Shown here: positions 13,007 through 20,076 of the stretch, one piece after another
How positions within the stretch are numbered: position 1 is the stretch's first letter
Layout of the letters: each line of letters starts with the position of its first letter
Assembly (NCBI GenBank): GCA_016209865.1
Contig: JACQVL010000156.1
Span: 1 to 20,661 of the forward strand
Direction of reading: 5' to 3'
Length of the DNA: 20,661 nucleotides
Source of the DNA: Candidatus Latescibacterota bacterium
GTDB taxonomy: Bacteria > JAAXHH01 > JACQVL01
Made by a program: the position numbers and the translations under genes
Notes under the pieces: model-generated
Told to the model about the DNA's origin: nothing
Seen by the model: only the letters and a program-made list of their open reading frames with translations
The model's database searches: none

Positions 13007-14377
13007 CTACTCCACCCCTCCCGACGCCAGCTCGTCTTTCCCCTGGATGCCCTTGATGACGCGGGACTGGGCACGGCGGAAGTAGGAACCGAACTGGGCC
13101 GAGAGCCGTCGCGCTTCTTCGCGGTGGTCGTCGATCAGATTCCTCGTCTCGCGCGGGTCGTCGATCAGGTGGTACAGCTCATCCGGTTCCCCCTCCGGCC
13201 GCTGGATGTAGCTCCAGGTCGCGTCCCGGATGCACCGGTCGATCCCCTCGTGGTACCCGGTGATGATGACCTCATGGTGGGTGTCCCGGTCGCCTCGCAG
13301 CACCGGCGCGAAGCTGCGGCCGTGCATGGAGGAGGCGTTGTGGCCGAGCTCCAACAGGTCGAGGATCGTCGGGAGGATGTCGTGGAATTGGATGATCGCC
13401 TGCGTCCGGCGTCCCCCGGACTGGCCGCCGGGGAGGCGGACGATGAACGGGACTTTCAGGAGTTCGTTGTACAGCCGGTCAGCCCCCTTCAGGAATTTTC
13501 CGTGATCGCCCAACGGATGACCATGGTCCGCCAGCAGGATGATCAGGGAATCCTCCGTATAGCCTTCTTCCTCCAAGCAGGTGAAGAGCGGCTCCAGGCA
13601 AGAGTCGACGAACGCCGCCTCGCCCGCATAGAGTCCCTGAATCTGGCGCTGTTCGTCCTCTGAGGCCCAGGCGCTGGCCCGTCCTCCCATCGGTATGATC
13701 AGGCGCGGGCCGGTGTAGCGCGGGTCGGTGTACGTGTCGAACCGCTGCGGCGGGTCCCACGGCTCGTGGGGGTCGAAGCTGTCGACCCAGAGGCAGAGGT
13801 GTTTGTGACCGCGATTCTGTTTCAGCCAATCGACCGCCTCCACCACGACCTTCGCCGGGAACCAGTCAGCCTCTTCGGTAAACGCATCCGTGTTCGCCAG
13901 GAATTGACCGACCAGGGTGCGCCAGTGGGCAGGATAATGGGCGTTCACGTAATCGTCGAGGTTGCGACGGGTGGGAGACGAGACATAGGGGTCGTATTCC
14001 TGGCCGCGAACCCAGCGGTAGGCGTGGAACCCTTTGTGGTAATTCATCCCCGGCGCCCGGTAGTGGTACGTGTCCGAGATCAGGCCGCAGACATACCCTT
14101 CCCGTCTCAGAATCTCCGCTAAGGTGATATCCTGGGGATGGAGCGGGCTCCAGGGGCGGTACGGCAGCGTCCGCTGGCCGGTCATGAGCTGGCAGCGGAT
14201 GGGGATCGTCGGCAGCGCCTCCGGGTAGGCATTCTCGAAGACGATTCCGTCTTCCGCGAACCGGTCGATGCGGGGGGTCACGCACGCCTTCACCCCATCA
14301 AACGGGCCATGGCCCTGGTTGTAGAGACTGACGTGATCCTGCCGGAAACTATCGAGGACGATGATGATCAGATTCAT
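13007..14377 (-). CDS. sulfatase-superfamily hydrolase with Thr at the formylglycine position
   Basis: The 456-residue protein has the alkaline-phosphatase/sulfatase fold. Segments include IIIVLDSFRQDH (Asp9 metal ligand), VTPRIDRFAEDGIVFENAY, WVDSFDPHEPWDPP, ILLADHGHPLGDHGKFLKG, VPFIVRLPG, HDILPTILDLL and ELYHLIDDPRE. The activation motif C/S-x-P-x-R is T57-IPI-R61 followed by CQLMTG. Thr therefore stands where Cys or Ser is converted to formylglycine, so the protein cannot be activated as a classical type I sulfatase. Thr is the native nucleophile in phosphodiesterase and phosphopentomutase relatives, so a phospho- or phosphonate-ester hydrolase is one possibility. No signal peptide is seen, suggesting a cytoplasmic location. 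AGGAGG at 14383-14388 supports the start. A promoter lies at 14490-14517. Confidence 0.88.
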   Translation of the reverse strand: MNLIIIVLDSFRQDHVSLYNQGHGPFDGVKACVTPRIDRFAEDGIVFENAYPEALPTIPIRCQLMTGQRTLPYRPWSPLHPQDITLAEILRREGYVCGLISDTYHYRAPGMNYHKGFHAYRWVRGQEYDPYVSSPTRRNLDDYVNAHYPAHWRTLVGQFLANTDAFTEEADWFPAKVVVEAVDWLKQNRGHKHLCLWVDSFDPHEPWDPPQRFDTYTDPRYTGPRLIIPMGGRASAWASEDEQRQIQGLYAGEAAFVDSCLEPLFTCLEEEGYTEDSLIILLADHGHPLGDHGKFLKGADRLYNELLKVPFIVRLPGGQSGGRRTQAIIQFHDILPTILDLLELGHNASSMHGRSFAPVLRGDRDTHHEVIITGYHEGIDRCIRDATWSYIQRPEGEPDELYHLIDDPRETRNLIDDHREEARRLSAQFGSYFRRAQSRVIKGIQGKDELASGGVE

Positions 14378-15252: not shown

Positions 15253-16011
15253 ATGACCATCGAACCCAGAGTTGGCGCTTCCCGGCTCTCGCCTCCGGCG
15301 GACCTCTCGTTGTCGCCCGGCGAGGTGCATGTCTGGCGGGCTTCTCTGGATGTCTCGGCGTCGCGCATCCAGAGCCTGCTTCGCACCGTCAGCGCGGACG
15401 AACGGGCCAGGGCTGAGCGGTCTCGTGTGCAGGAAGACCGGGATCGTTTCATCGTCGGCCGCGGGGTGTTGAGGGGACTCCTCGCCCGGTATCTGGACAT
15501 CCAGCCGGATCAGGTGTGCTTGTCTTCCACGTTGTATGGGAAACCTATCCTGACCGGGACACACGGTGGAGCTCGCCTCCGCTTCAGTGTGTCTCACTCC
15601 CATCGACTGGCCCTGTATGCGGTCAGCCGTGACCGCGAGGTGGGCATCGACCTCGAATACAGGCGTCCAGGCCGGGACGAGACGCTGATGGCCATCGCTG
15701 AGCAATTCTTCTCGTCGCGAGAGGTCAAGGCGCTCCGCAGGCTCCCGGTGTCTGGCAGGGCTGAGGGGTTTTACGCCTGCTGGACGCGCAAGGAGGCGTA
15801 TCTCAAGGCGAAGGGCCGGGGGCTGTCGCTCCCGCTCGACCAGTTCGTCGTGTCGGTCACTCCGGGATGCGCGGCGTTGTTGCACACGGCCTGGTCTCCT
15901 GACGAGGCCGCTCGTTGGTCGCTCTCCGACCTCGACCCTGGCCCCGGTTATGCGGCTGCGCTGGCGGTTGAAGGGGAGTGCCAGTGTGTGCAATGGCAGT
16001 GGCCCGATTGA
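15253..16011 (+). CDS. 4'-phosphopantetheinyl transferase (Sfp type)
   Basis: The 252-residue protein carries the Sfp signature. RFIVGRGVLRGLLARYL and LRFSVSHSHRLALYAVS lead to the metal-binding GIDLEY (Asp133, Glu135) and then FYACWTRKEAYLKAKGRG (Trp177, Lys180, Glu181, Lys185). It transfers phosphopantetheine from coenzyme A to a carrier-protein serine, activating fatty-acid, polyketide or nonribosomal-peptide carriers in the cytoplasm. The length fits the two-domain Sfp type, not the small AcpS type. No carrier protein or synthase is in the window, so its partner is elsewhere. AGGA 12 bases before the ATG is a weak ribosome site. The gene end runs into repeat debris (16013-16078). Confidence 0.9.
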   Translation: MTIEPRVGASRLSPPADLSLSPGEVHVWRASLDVSASRIQSLLRTVSADERARAERSRVQEDRDRFIVGRGVLRGLLARYLDIQPDQVCLSSTLYGKPILTGTHGGARLRFSVSHSHRLALYAVSRDREVGIDLEYRRPGRDETLMAIAEQFFSSREVKALRRLPVSGRAEGFYACWTRKEAYLKAKGRGLSLPLDQFVVSVTPGCAALLHTAWSPDEAARWSLSDLDPGPGYAAALAVEGECQCVQWQWPD

Positions 16012-16012
16012 G

Positions 16013-16078
16013 AACCGCAAAGAGCGCAGAGGGCGCAAAGAGTATTTCGGGATTGGGGGTTCGGGATTCAGGGGTTCG
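16013..16078. repeat. low-complexity repeat debris after the phosphopantetheinyl transferase
   Basis: Two short-period blocks follow the stop. At 16013-16042 units like CGCAAAGAG and CGCAGAGGG alternate. At 16048-16078 GGGATT/GGGGTTC units alternate (CGGGATTGGGGGTTCGGGATTCAGGGG is split here as CGGGATT, GGGGGTTC, GGGATTCA, GGGG). They are the same kind of degenerate border repeat as at 2321-2360. No coding potential is assigned. Confidence 0.6.
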
Positions 16079-16112
16079 TGAAGAACAGAAAGTAATGAAA
16101 AAGGGCACAAAC

Positions 16113-16135
16113 AAAAAAACCGAGAACACTCTCGG
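16113..16135 (-). terminator. rho-independent terminator
   Basis: On the minus strand CCGAGA (plus 16130-16135) pairs perfectly with TCTCGG (plus 16120-16125) across a 4-base loop and is followed by seven T (plus 16113-16119). It is the clearest terminator in the window and closes the transcription unit started at 16500-16528. Confidence 0.85.
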
Positions 16136-16166
16136 CTATCAAAACAGGAAAAGGGAGAAAACGAGT

Positions 16167-16215
16167 ACGGCCGCGATGGTGAGCAACCCGTAAGCTGACT
16201 CACCATCCCGGCCGT
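16167..16215 (-). other. very stable long hairpin inside the candidate RNA
   Basis: ACGGCCG (16167-16173) pairs with CGGCCGT (16209-16215). After a single mismatch (16174/16208), GATGGTGAG (16175-16183) pairs with CTCACCATC (16199-16207). All 16 pairs are Watson-Crick; the loop is 15 bases. It lies between the 16218-16279 arm and the terminator. Confidence 0.85.
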
Positions 16216-16499
16216 TGCCAATCAACGAGCATGTCGCCTCCAGAGTAACAAGCCCGGTGGAGTCATGCTACCTCCTTGGTAAGAGTCTCTGCGGCCCGCC
16301 ACTCACGTCCGTGGTCCCACCGTCACTCTGACCGTCAGCCCGCGGCCCATCCAGGCGTGCTGAGCAGCTATTCCGGAGCCGGGTCGTGCGCTCATCGGAA
16401 CCCATCGTTTGCCCGATGTCCGGCAAGCCTTGGGTCAAACTCCGGACCGTTTCGGACGGCTGCCGCTCCTCTGTGTTACGAGGTCGCTTTCCACTCTTT

Positions 16500-16528
16500 A
16501 ATATAGGTCATGACCGGCAAAATTTCAA
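16500..16528 (-). promoter_or_regulatory. strong sigma70-like promoter with AT-rich upstream tract
   Basis: On the minus strand TTGAAA (plus 16523-16528) is followed after exactly 17 bases by TATATT (plus 16500-16505); each box matches consensus at 5 of 6 bases. Upstream (plus 16529-16556) is an A/T-rich tract with runs of A and T resembling an UP element, striking in this GC-rich DNA. Initiation is expected near 16493. Confidence 0.75.
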
Positions 16529-16556
16529 GAGGATTTTTACGTTTTTTTCGAAAAAT

Positions 16557-17657
16557 TTACCCCTCGTCCAGGGGCAGGTCGACCGTCTCTCTCCGCTGGA
16601 TCGAACGGTGCGAGGCCAGACAGAGTTCGAGCGCGTGATGGCCGTCCCATCCGGTGACCAGCGGACGTTCCGCCCCACGGATGGCCTGCAGGAAGTTTTC
16701 GATCTCTCCCATGTACCCGCCGAATTCTTCATCGAAGATAAGGGTGTTGGGGATGACCGGACGCCACGACTTGGCCGGGCCTTCTTCGCTGTCGTAGAGG
16801 ATCAACTCGAACTGGTCTTCGACAGCCAGCCAGCCGTTGTTCCCGTAGATCTCGACCCGTTCCCAGGGTTTGAGGCTCAGGGCGGTCGATGTCGTGTAGA
16901 GCGTCCCGATCGCACTGGAGGTGAACTCAAACGTGATGATCGCGTTGTCGATCGGATACCCGGTCCGGTTGCGCTGATAGTGGTTCACCCCGACGGCATG
17001 GACGGACCGGACGTTCCCCATGAAGAAGCGGGTCAGGTCGAACAGGTGGACTGTGCCCGACTCGAAGAGGTCGACGTCGTCGTAACCGAGGTTGAACTTG
17101 CCACAGAACATCGCCGGGTTGGCGACCGGGCCTTCGTCGACGAAGCGTTTCGCGCGGCGGTAGGGCGGGCTGTAGCGCTTGTTCGAGACGGTCATGAGCA
17201 CCAGACCCCGCTCGTCTGCCAATCGGCAGAGCCGTTGGGAATCGCGCAACGACCGGCACAGCGGTTTTTCGACCATGACGGGCAACCCGGCCTCGAGACA
17301 CGCGATGCCGTGCTCCGCGTGCAGGCCATCCGGGCTTGTGACCAGGACGCCGTCCAGCGTCTCCTGGCTGAGCATCGCCGCAGAATCCCCGTACCACCGG
17401 CAGCCGTAGGTCTGCTCGAGGCGCCGGCCGGTGCGCTCGTCCAGGCTGGAGATCGCCGCCAGGTCGACTGGCTCCCAGATCGTCTTCAGCCGCATGATCG
17501 CCGGGATGTGTTTCGACTGGGCGACCCCACCGGCCCCGATGAGGCCGAGACGAATCCGTTTGCGTGAGGCGCGCTCGTCATCGTACCCCACGCCGTACAC
17601 GTCGCTCTGGTCGAACATTTTGTTGAGGGGAGAATGGGCGTAGGTGTCGTCGAGCAT
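16557..17657 (-). CDS. Gfo/Idh/MocA-family oxidoreductase
   Basis: The 366-residue protein begins with a 33-residue extension and then the Rossmann strand RLGLIGAGGVAQSKHIPAI (about residues 35-53). The NAD(P)-site strand VLVTSPDGLHAEH and the signature VEKPLCRSL follow, with the catalytic Lys in EKP. The C-terminal alpha/beta domain has GTVHLFDLTRFFMG and NAIITFEFTSSAIGTLYTT, as in myo-inositol 2-dehydrogenase and glucose-fructose oxidoreductase relatives. It would oxidise or reduce a sugar or sugar derivative with NAD(P) in the cytoplasm. GAGGAG upstream of the ATG at 17657 supports the start. It lies 15 bp after the second enolase-family gene, so it is the last member of that operon. Substrate not determined. 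Confidence 0.9.
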   Translation of the reverse strand: MLDDTYAHSPLNKMFDQSDVYGVGYDDERASRKRIRLGLIGAGGVAQSKHIPAIMRLKTIWEPVDLAAISSLDERTGRRLEQTYGCRWYGDSAAMLSQETLDGVLVTSPDGLHAEHGIACLEAGLPVMVEKPLCRSLRDSQRLCRLADERGLVLMTVSNKRYSPPYRRAKRFVDEGPVANPAMFCGKFNLGYDDVDLFESGTVHLFDLTRFFMGNVRSVHAVGVNHYQRNRTGYPIDNAIITFEFTSSAIGTLYTTSTALSLKPWERVEIYGNNGWLAVEDQFELILYDSEEGPAKSWRPVIPNTLIFDEEFGGYMGEIENFLQAIRGAERPLVTGWDGHHALELCLASHRSIQRRETVDLPLDEG

Positions 17658-17672: not shown

Positions 17673-18827
17673 TCAACGATTCTGCGTAAAGTCCCGCAAC
17701 CACCGCTGATCCCATAACGACGGGAAACTGTTCTTCTTATACGGATGCTCAGCACAGACCTCGGTATCGAGTTCGAGTCCCAACCCAGGCTTCTCCGGCA
17801 GGAGAAATTCCCCATGACGAATCGGACTCCAGCCGCACACCAGGTCGTTGCGCCAGGGGACGTCATACTCGGCAAAGTTTTCCTGGATGATCACGTTGGG
17901 GGTTGACCAATCGACATGTAGGGCGGCACAGAGCGCGACCGGGCCGATCGAGCAGTGGGGAGACACGTTCATGTCCTGCGTCCCGGCCATCCCCGCGATC
18001 TTCTTCGTCATCAACAGTCCGCCGCAATGGGCGGGGTCCATCTGCACGATGTCCGCGGCGCGCAGGACGGTCAGCCGGTAGAAATCCTGCAACGTGTACA
18101 ACCGCTCGCCCGCGGCGATGGGGAACGGCAGGGCGGCTTTGACCTCCTTCAGCAGTTCCAGGCTGTTGGGGGTGACCGGCTCCTCGTACCAGGCAGGACG
18201 GTACGGTTCGAGACGCCGCCCGATCTCGATCGCGCATCCAGCCGACAGACGGCCATGCACTTCGATCATCAGGTCGATGTCCGGACCTGCCGCATCGCGG
18301 ACGGCCGCGACGAGTCGTTCGGTGTCCGACATCTCCGCCCGGCTCATCTCCTTCCATGCCGTCCCGAACGGGTCGAACTTCAGCCCCCGGTACCCGCGCG
18401 CCACCGCCTCGCGCGCCCGGTCAGCATACTCCTGAGGCGTCCGCGCCCCTCCGTACCAGCCGTTGGCGTACGCGAACAGCCGGTCGTGGCAGCGGCCGCC
18501 CAACAGCCGGTAGACCGGCTGCCCGCACGCTTTCCCGATCAGGTCCCAGCACGCGATCTCCACCCCGCTGATGGCGGTCATCACCGTCGATCCGCCCTGG
18601 TACTGATCCCGGATGAGGCCGCCGATGACCGCTTCGACATCGAACGGGTCGATCCCCATGACCCGATCCTCCACCCATTCGTGGATGATCGTCTGGACGG
18701 TCTGCTCCTGCCACTCTAACGACGCTTCCCCGAGCCCGGTCAACCCCGTGTCGGTCGTCAGCCGGATGAACAGGTAGTTCCGCAGTCCTGCGTTGGTGAG
18801 GAACGTTTCGAGACGGGTGATGTTCAT
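17673..18827 (-). CDS. enolase-superfamily sugar-acid dehydratase (galactonate dehydratase-like), second copy
   Basis: From the ATG at 18827 (with AGAGGG upstream) the product is 384 residues; the frame stays open to 18854. The N-terminal capping domain (MNITRLETFLTN, TDTGLTGLGEASLEW) precedes the barrel. Barrel segments are WDLIGKACGQPVYRLLGG, GLKFDPFG, MIEVHGR (Glu189 metal ligand, His191 candidate base), WYEEP (Glu215/216), AAGERLY (Glu241) and SPHCSIGP (second His). The ligand-x-His pattern is that of galactonate dehydratase and relatives, with Glu for the usual Asp. It should remove water from an aldonic or aldaric acid. It lies 10 bp after the related upstream gene and 15 bp before the oxidoreductase. 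Confidence 0.87.
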   Translation of the reverse strand: MNITRLETFLTNAGLRNYLFIRLTTDTGLTGLGEASLEWQEQTVQTIIHEWVEDRVMGIDPFDVEAVIGGLIRDQYQGGSTVMTAISGVEIACWDLIGKACGQPVYRLLGGRCHDRLFAYANGWYGGARTPQEYADRAREAVARGYRGLKFDPFGTAWKEMSRAEMSDTERLVAAVRDAAGPDIDLMIEVHGRLSAGCAIEIGRRLEPYRPAWYEEPVTPNSLELLKEVKAALPFPIAAGERLYTLQDFYRLTVLRAADIVQMDPAHCGGLLMTKKIAGMAGTQDMNVSPHCSIGPVALCAALHVDWSTPNVIIQENFAEYDVPWRNDLVCGWSPIRHGEFLLPEKPGLGLELDTEVCAEHPYKKNSFPSLWDQRWLRDFTQNR

Positions 18828-18837
18828 CGTGATCCCT

Positions 18838-20025
18838 CTACTGTGTCGACACACGCCGCGTCACATCAGACCTCGCCAGCACATCGGGCCGTAATCGCAC
18901 CCCCAGGCCGGGACCGAAGTCGAGCCATGCCTGGCCGTCACGGATGGGCACGGGGGTGGTGACCAGGTCGAGGTAATACCCCTGGTAGAACCCCCGGACG
19001 ACCTCCATGATCATCGCGTTCGGGGCGGCGGCGCAGAGATGCAGGCACGCGAAGACGTTCACCGGCCCGGTGCAGTCGTGGGGCGCGAAGGGGAGATGGT
19101 AGGTATCGGCTAAGGCGACGATCTTCTGGGCTTCCGTCAGGCCGCCCGTCCAGATGAGGTCGATCATGATGATGTGGGCGGCCCCTCGCTCGAGCACCTC
19201 ACGGTACGCGTACCGCGTGAACAACCGCTCGCTCACGCACTGAGGCACGCGGGTCTCCCGGACGAGCCGCGCTAAGTCGTCCACGCTGTCCGGCTGGATG
19301 ATGTCCTCCATCCAGATCACATCGTACGGCTCCAGGGCGCGGGCGATCTTGATCGCACAGTTCACGTCCCAGCGCGAATGGCCCTCGATGGCGATGTCCA
19401 TCCGAGACCCGACGGCTTTGCGGACCTCCTGCACCGTCCACAGCCCCTGCTGGAGGTCCTGCGGCGACAGGTGATGGCCGGGGGGGCCGACCGCTGACCA
19501 GCCGGCCGGCCCGGTCAATTGACTGCTCGTGATCTGCGGCGCGAAGCGATCCCACGGCCACACTTTCATCTGTGTGATCCCATCGGCCATCAGGGACTCC
19601 GCCAGCTCTCCGGGCCGCTGCACGAACCCGTCCTGATCGGCATACTTCGGGGTGTTCACGCAGGTGTTGTAGACCCGGATCGTGTCGCGGCATCGTCCGC
19701 CGAGCAGGTTGTAGACCGGCTGGCCGAGGGACTGGCCGAGCAGGTCCCACAACGCGATATCCAGCGCTGACAGGGCGCGCAGTTCCGCGCCCGCGTAGCC
19801 GAAGAAGTTGGCGTAGGAGAACAGATTCTGCCAGTGCCGCTCCCGGTCAAACACCGACTGGCCGAGCAACAGCGGCGCGGCGAAGTCGTGGATGACCGCC
19901 TCAATCGCGCCGGGGATGTAGTACGTCTCGCCCAGACCGACCAGGCCTTCATCGGTGTGGACGTGGACCCAGATCGTATTCGGATGTTCAGGAAGCCGGA
20001 GGGTTTCGATTGTGGTGATGTGCAT
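18838..20025 (-). CDS. enolase-superfamily sugar-acid dehydratase (galactonate dehydratase-like), first copy
   Basis: From the ATG at 20025 the product is 395 residues; the frame is open to 20070, but MHITTIETLRL is the family-like start and GGAGG precedes it at about 11 bases. Capping domain TDEGLVGLGETYYIPG is followed by LDIALWDLLGQSLGQPVYNLLGGRCRD, MKVWPWD, IEGHSRW (Glu214, His216), WMEDI (Glu240), CVSERL (Glu266) and FAPHDCTGPV. The three-glutamate metal site and two histidines are complete, so activity is expected. A long loop rich in Gly and Pro (about residues 160-195) distinguishes it from the second copy. It shares family and active-site plan with the gene at 17673, but the two are too different to be a recent duplication. 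Dehydration of a sugar acid is inferred; the substrate is unknown. Confidence 0.87.
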   Translation of the reverse strand: MHITTIETLRLPEHPNTIWVHVHTDEGLVGLGETYYIPGAIEAVIHDFAAPLLLGQSVFDRERHWQNLFSYANFFGYAGAELRALSALDIALWDLLGQSLGQPVYNLLGGRCRDTIRVYNTCVNTPKYADQDGFVQRPGELAESLMADGITQMKVWPWDRFAPQITSSQLTGPAGWSAVGPPGHHLSPQDLQQGLWTVQEVRKAVGSRMDIAIEGHSRWDVNCAIKIARALEPYDVIWMEDIIQPDSVDDLARLVRETRVPQCVSERLFTRYAYREVLERGAAHIIMIDLIWTGGLTEAQKIVALADTYHLPFAPHDCTGPVNVFACLHLCAAAPNAMIMEVVRGFYQGYYLDLVTTPVPIRDGQAWLDFGPGLGVRLRPDVLARSDVTRRVSTQ

Positions 20026-20076
20026 GGTAGGGGTGTCCTCCAAGTAGGATTCGCCTTTCCTCCGTTTCACCCTTTT

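Follow-up and report, generated by a model that had tools for sequence, protein, structure and literature searches.

The window, by which we mean the whole 20,661-nt stretch of DNA analysed here (contig JACQVL010000156.1 of a Candidatus Latescibacterota bacterium), contains at 16012-16556 an interval between convergent genes for a phosphopantetheinyl transferase (PPTase) and a Gfo/Idh-type oxidoreductase (Table 1). On the minus strand of this interval, a sigma-70-like promoter with 10 of 12 consensus matches, a quality reached by a mean of 0.1 sites in shuffled sequences, and an intrinsic terminator hairpin followed by a T tract lie where the first-pass annotation had placed them. Together, they delimit a predicted transcript of 382 nt that runs from about 16493 to about 16113. 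No protein gene of usual size lies between promoter and terminator, and neither ARAGORN nor Rfam found a tRNA or tmRNA in the window.

The flanking genes have features of their own. At the last Gfo/Idh codons (16558-16576, minus strand) there is a hairpin that resembles a terminator and ends in a T-rich tail, and the gene may thus have a terminator of its own at the extreme 3' end. Two tandem enolase-superfamily (MR_MLE) genes lie upstream of it (17673-20070, minus strand), and the pair apparently makes up a sugar-acid catabolic operon with the Gfo/Idh gene. On the other side, the sequence AGAACCGCAAAGAGCGCAGAGGGCGCAAAGAG, located just past the PPTase stop (16012-16045, plus strand), resembles a dispersed intergenic repeat and has a single occurrence in the window; a sulfatase is encoded further away, at 13007-14377.

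Table 1. Features of the RNA gene and its neighbours, in window coordinates
Feature	Position	Strand	Remarks
PPTase gene	15253-16011	+	convergent with the RNA gene
Second intrinsic terminator	16113-16137	-	hairpin 16137-16118, then T tract; window only
Long hairpin	16167-16215	-	poor U tract in the window; counterpart of the G011 and G013 intrinsic terminator hairpins
Putative tiny ORF	16222-16266	-	MTPPGLLLWRRHAR, then stop
UGGAGG	16237-16242	-	then AUG in 3/3; candidate second Shine-Dalgarno sequence, or W-R codons of the ORF
Shine-Dalgarno AAGGAGGU	16270-16277	-	starts 14 nt past P1
Closed core domain	16292-16465	-	conserved; 174 nt
P1, 3' strand GCCG	16292-16295	-	
P2, 3' strand CGGACG	16306-16311	-	
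P3, 3' strand GGACC	16313-16317	-	
Variable core interior	16318-16443	-	only first and last few bases alignable; total length near-constant
P3, 5' strand GGUCC	16444-16448	-	pairs with 16313-16317; paired in 3/3 genomes
Internal loop AAAN	16449-16452	-	faces a single purine; AAA invariant in 3/3
P2, 5' strand CGUCCG	16453-16458	-	pairs with 16306-16311; paired in 3/3 genomes
P1, 5' strand CGGC	16462-16465	-	pairs with 16292-16295; paired in 3/3, one U-G variant
Sigma-70-like promoter TTGAAA-N17-TATATT	16500-16528	-	
Gfo/Idh-type oxidoreductase gene	16557-17657	-	

A BLAST comparison of this region with 96 genomes returned a single match outside the source genome (E 7e-5). It lies in G011, a genome from another family of the same order, and comparison of the two loci revealed further colinear blocks beyond the BLAST match. 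BLAST fragments in G013, G015 and G001 were rejected as coding or terminator-only matches. We built a covariance model from the window and G011 sequences only. This two-sequence model detected a copy in G013, a genome from another genus of the order, with a score of 52.9 bits (E 2.6e-14) and a colinear match along its full length; as G013 had no part in building the model, this is a held-out test. The best score among 381 other genomes in the same search, the two training genomes aside, was 15.4 bits. Each of the three genomes carries one copy of the RNA, and the sole other strong match in them comes from the opposite strand of the terminator hairpin of the window RNA.

Beyond these three members, the RNA appears to be narrowly distributed. 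Within the order, model searches of one other genus (12 species) and of the single genome from a third family found no credible copy. Genome searches covered 97,973 of about 199,900 species and 16 genomes of the phylum, and the RNA-model searches across many genomes scored the best few candidates per genome. When 84,980 species genomes were scanned for an exact 20-base motif of the 5' block, 89 stretches were reported, and only G011 and G013 were real among the 80 that were listed and rescored. Weak model matches of 17-23 bits in the other genomes inspected covered the stretch of the tiny open reading frame (ORF) alone and had no core. Phage and plasmid records gave no match to the RNA; three loci in viral contigs carried the 5' block and one the 3' block, the latter being phage coding sequence, and none matched model R2.

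The three genomes harbor the RNA gene at unrelated loci, and in a synteny check the flavin reductase and PPTase neighbourhoods of relatives were without such an RNA. Misbinned contigs are argued against by the flanking genes, which are common across the order. At each locus, the gene has a sigma-70-like promoter and a terminator of its own: the promoter of G011, aligned to that of the window, reads TTGACG-N17-TATATT, and that of G013 reads TTAACA-N16-TATACT. Additionally, the gene that comes next after the terminator is convergent in all three genomes.

What the three copies share is a closed core of 174, 167 and 170 nt (window, G011 and G013, respectively), which begins 34, 29 and 31 nt past the -10 box and which the first-pass annotation had missed. 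All 15 of its pairs, distributed over helices P1 to P3, are kept in the three genomes; two are compensatory and two more tolerate U-G. The consensus of P2 is CRUCCG/CGGAYG, with one compensatory exchange between G-C and A-U, and that of P3 is GRUCC/GGAYC, with one such exchange and one between C-G and U-G, while an asymmetric loop separates P1 and P2. With the terminator included, the 26 modelled pairs can form in 100% of cells, compared with 26-43% when partners are slid by 1-3 columns, and the observed covariation was equalled in 3 of 500 shuffles, a figure that rests on three sequences with few independent changes and on a structure derived from two of the three. Folding of the whole 382-nt transcript is somewhat better than that of shuffled sequences (z -2.2), which is weak evidence alone, and the folding energy of the core is at shuffled level in the three genomes (z 0.3, -0.9 and 0.3). 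Because the core is no more stable than its shuffles, the case for its structure is built on conservation and compensation rather than on stability.

Only one of the three helical elements named in the first-pass annotation is conserved. The hairpin at 16167-16215, described there as having 16 pairs, does exist: RNAfold gives it 21 pairs, and two of its pairs show compensatory change. It proves to be homologous to the terminator hairpin of the relatives. The proposed three-helix arm (16218-16279) and closed domain (16372-16446) do fold in isolation, yet inspection of the alignment indicates that their pairing is not kept in the relatives; moreover, some of the bases that pair in the closed domain belong to P3 in the conserved model.

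Straight after the core, at 16277-16264 of the minus strand, comes a second element that had been overlooked, a Shine-Dalgarno sequence with its AUG. The distance from P1 to the Shine-Dalgarno sequence is 14, 15 and 21 nt in the window, G011 and G013. The Shine-Dalgarno stretch itself is AAGGAGGUAGCAUGA in both the window and G011 and AAAGGAGAGGGGGUAUGA in G013, so that Shine-Dalgarno and AUG are unchanged between two families of the order. No conserved pairing that would sequester the Shine-Dalgarno sequence was noticed on unsystematic inspection. The AUG opens a putative tiny ORF of 13-14 codons in two of the three genomes, encoding MMTPPDWSWRISE and then a stop in G011; the version in G013 (MSPPDILWR...) has no stop before the terminator. 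Length differences inside this ORF are multiples of three, and the three sequences differ by one synonymous proline codon change and a Thr/Ser interchange. This pattern of substitutions and lengths is what a peptide would show, although three sequences are no proof. The predicted peptides diverge after W-R, that is, after about nine residues, and W-R may simply reflect a second Shine-Dalgarno sequence, UGGAGG; the second ORFs that follow it (MLVDWQRPGW, MRFH and MDGSTKP) are not alike.

The predicted peptides begin with M-(T/S)-P-P-(D/G), which places a diprolyl PPD or PPG motif close to the start. Ribosome profiling in E. coli found PPD only among pausing PPX sites, and PPG among them as well (PMC4140641). 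Such a start belongs to the motifs at which ribosomes pause. The earlier statement that the transcript contains no normal gene holds for proteins of usual size, but it passed over a strong Shine-Dalgarno-AUG combination and an ORF of 13-14 codons in two of three genomes; since these are present, a purely non-coding role is not established.

Comparison with known RNAs gave no identity. In covariance-model searches, no Rfam 15 family reached its gathering score anywhere in the window, so the RNA does not qualify as a member of any of these families. Matches at relaxed E-values were chance-level at all three loci, consisting of eukaryotic miRNA/snoRNA-type families and short sRNAs, and none was credible. 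There is no match to 6S RNA (RF00013) at the window RNA locus, and ARAGORN and Rfam found nothing of the tRNA-like domain and tag ORF that characterize tmRNA. Riboswitches and cis-acting leaders lie upstream of a co-oriented gene that they regulate; here, all three genomes have a convergent gene next, and only the 13-14 codon ORF lies downstream of the core. With its own promoter and terminator and a short ORF behind a Shine-Dalgarno sequence, the RNA has the gene layout of a dual-function sRNA, the ORF of G013 being without a stop. The proposal of a separate transcription unit for a probable new structured RNA is supported: there are two homologues with promoters and terminators of their own, the copies share a closed core in which compensatory changes occur, and Rfam offers no match.

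Our computations establish a conserved unit of promoter, core, Shine-Dalgarno sequence and terminator, in which the core helices and the Shine-Dalgarno-AUG pair are conserved. From the sequences, it seems that the core may control, or else accompany, translation of the putative tiny ORF. We tentatively favor, with somewhat less than even confidence, a standalone leader-like or dual-function RNA that carries a folded domain directly before a tiny ORF. Such a gene would be transcribed by itself along the predicted extent, and its product would comprise a domain of roughly 170 nt, which a stack of three long-range helices closes and in which the internal loops are fixed, a strong ribosome-binding site within 14-21 nt after the domain, the tiny ORF and the terminator. 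The domain might sense a ligand, a protein or a folding state, and its state might set ribosome loading on the short reading frame that comes next; either the encoded peptide or the pausing of ribosomes on the transcript would then be the output. No larger gene would be served, because a convergent gene follows the terminator in all three genomes. In favor of a leader-like or dual-function RNA are the held-out detection in G013, the 15 of 15 core pairs, the three promoters and terminators, the near-constant spacings, the invariant Shine-Dalgarno-AUG, the multiple-of-three gaps in the ORF and the data on pausing PPX motifs. It is weakened by the sample of three sequences, the two covarying core pairs, the stopless ORF of G013, the divergence of the peptides after a W-R that may be a second Shine-Dalgarno sequence, a core no more stable than its shuffles, and the lack of a noticed pairing that would sequester the Shine-Dalgarno sequence. 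The stricter proposal of a new class of regulatory RNA, standing alone, whose domain of riboswitch size (about 170 nt) would gate translation of a predicted 13-14 codon peptide with a diprolyl start, and whose sole output would be this peptide or a paused ribosome, is distinctly doubtful.

The main rival is a trans-acting regulatory sRNA, in which the domain would act as a scaffold, the GGAGG-rich single strand would pair with targets or bind ribosomes, and the ORF would be incidental. We regard this as rather on the unlikely side. It would accommodate the missing stop in G013, the divergence of the peptides after about nine residues, and a gene with promoter and terminator but no downstream gene; however, it does not readily account for a conserved stretch that is exactly a Shine-Dalgarno sequence at normal spacing to an AUG in all three genomes, or for gaps inside the ORF that are multiples of three. 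The order of core, Shine-Dalgarno sequence and terminator does look like a leader, and one could envisage a riboswitch or attenuator leader whose gene has been lost or is located past the terminator. Yet the next gene is convergent at three unrelated loci, so that no downstream gene would be regulated at any of them, and this origin is disfavored and improbable.

The remaining alternatives concern what kind of element this is. A small mobile element, whose complementarity would reflect an inverted repeat in the DNA and not a helix in an RNA, would fit a patchy distribution over three unrelated locations; it has little probability in view of the single copy per genome, the conservation of promoter, Shine-Dalgarno sequence and terminator outside the repeat, and that of unpaired loop bases. 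The RNA's size of about 300-380 nt and its own promoter would suit a diverged housekeeping RNA (6S, RNase P, SRP RNA or tmRNA), one of the two types that had been suggested at first. This is very improbable: no Rfam match appeared at any of the three loci even at relaxed thresholds, sub-threshold full-length 6S-like matches exist elsewhere in G011, G013 and G007, searches of one genus of the order, 12 species in all, did not find the RNA, and its location is not conserved. Lastly, similarity by chance, with no functional RNA, would explain a core folding energy at shuffled level, but we give it hardly any credence given a held-out match of E 2.6e-14 that is colinear over the whole model.

The preferred leader-like or dual-function RNA bears some parallels with known systems. 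Downstream-peptide and glutamine riboswitch RNAs are cis elements of short-protein genes, and they likewise place a structured RNA right before a short ORF; the window RNA differs from them in sequence and size, has no Rfam match, and forms a complete promoter-to-terminator unit with an ORF of 13-14 codons. Spot 42/SpfP, SgrS/SgrT and RNAIII/hld are dual-function stand-alone sRNA genes with a very short ORF. The window RNA shares this organization, but it has no sequence or Rfam relation to them, is not known to have targets, and carries its ORF behind a large closed domain. Proline-codon leader peptides such as mgtL, which lies upstream of a transporter gene, also combine a very short ORF, early prolines and structured RNA, whereas no downstream gene is present at the window RNA.

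What we describe appears to be an RNA family that is new and of narrow distribution, with three members, about whose function we can only infer. This structured family, absent from Rfam 15, was recognized from one genome of a candidate lineage that has been little studied, a held-out homologue confirmed it, and its core motif is short and specific enough for metagenome searching. If the domain does control a 13-codon ORF without a downstream gene, the result would be a minimal RNA regulator of an unusual kind, with translation of the peptide, or the pausing ribosome, itself as the output. In its overall layout, the RNA is also reminiscent of 6S RNA, being stand-alone and closed by long-range helices; it differs in having no RF00013 match, and three genomes of the order have weak 6S-like candidates at other loci. 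These are full-length 6S RNA matches of 25-31 bits, below the gathering score of 46.4, at loci L135 (G011), L133 (G013) and L134 (G007), and they possibly represent a diverged 6S RNA of this lineage.
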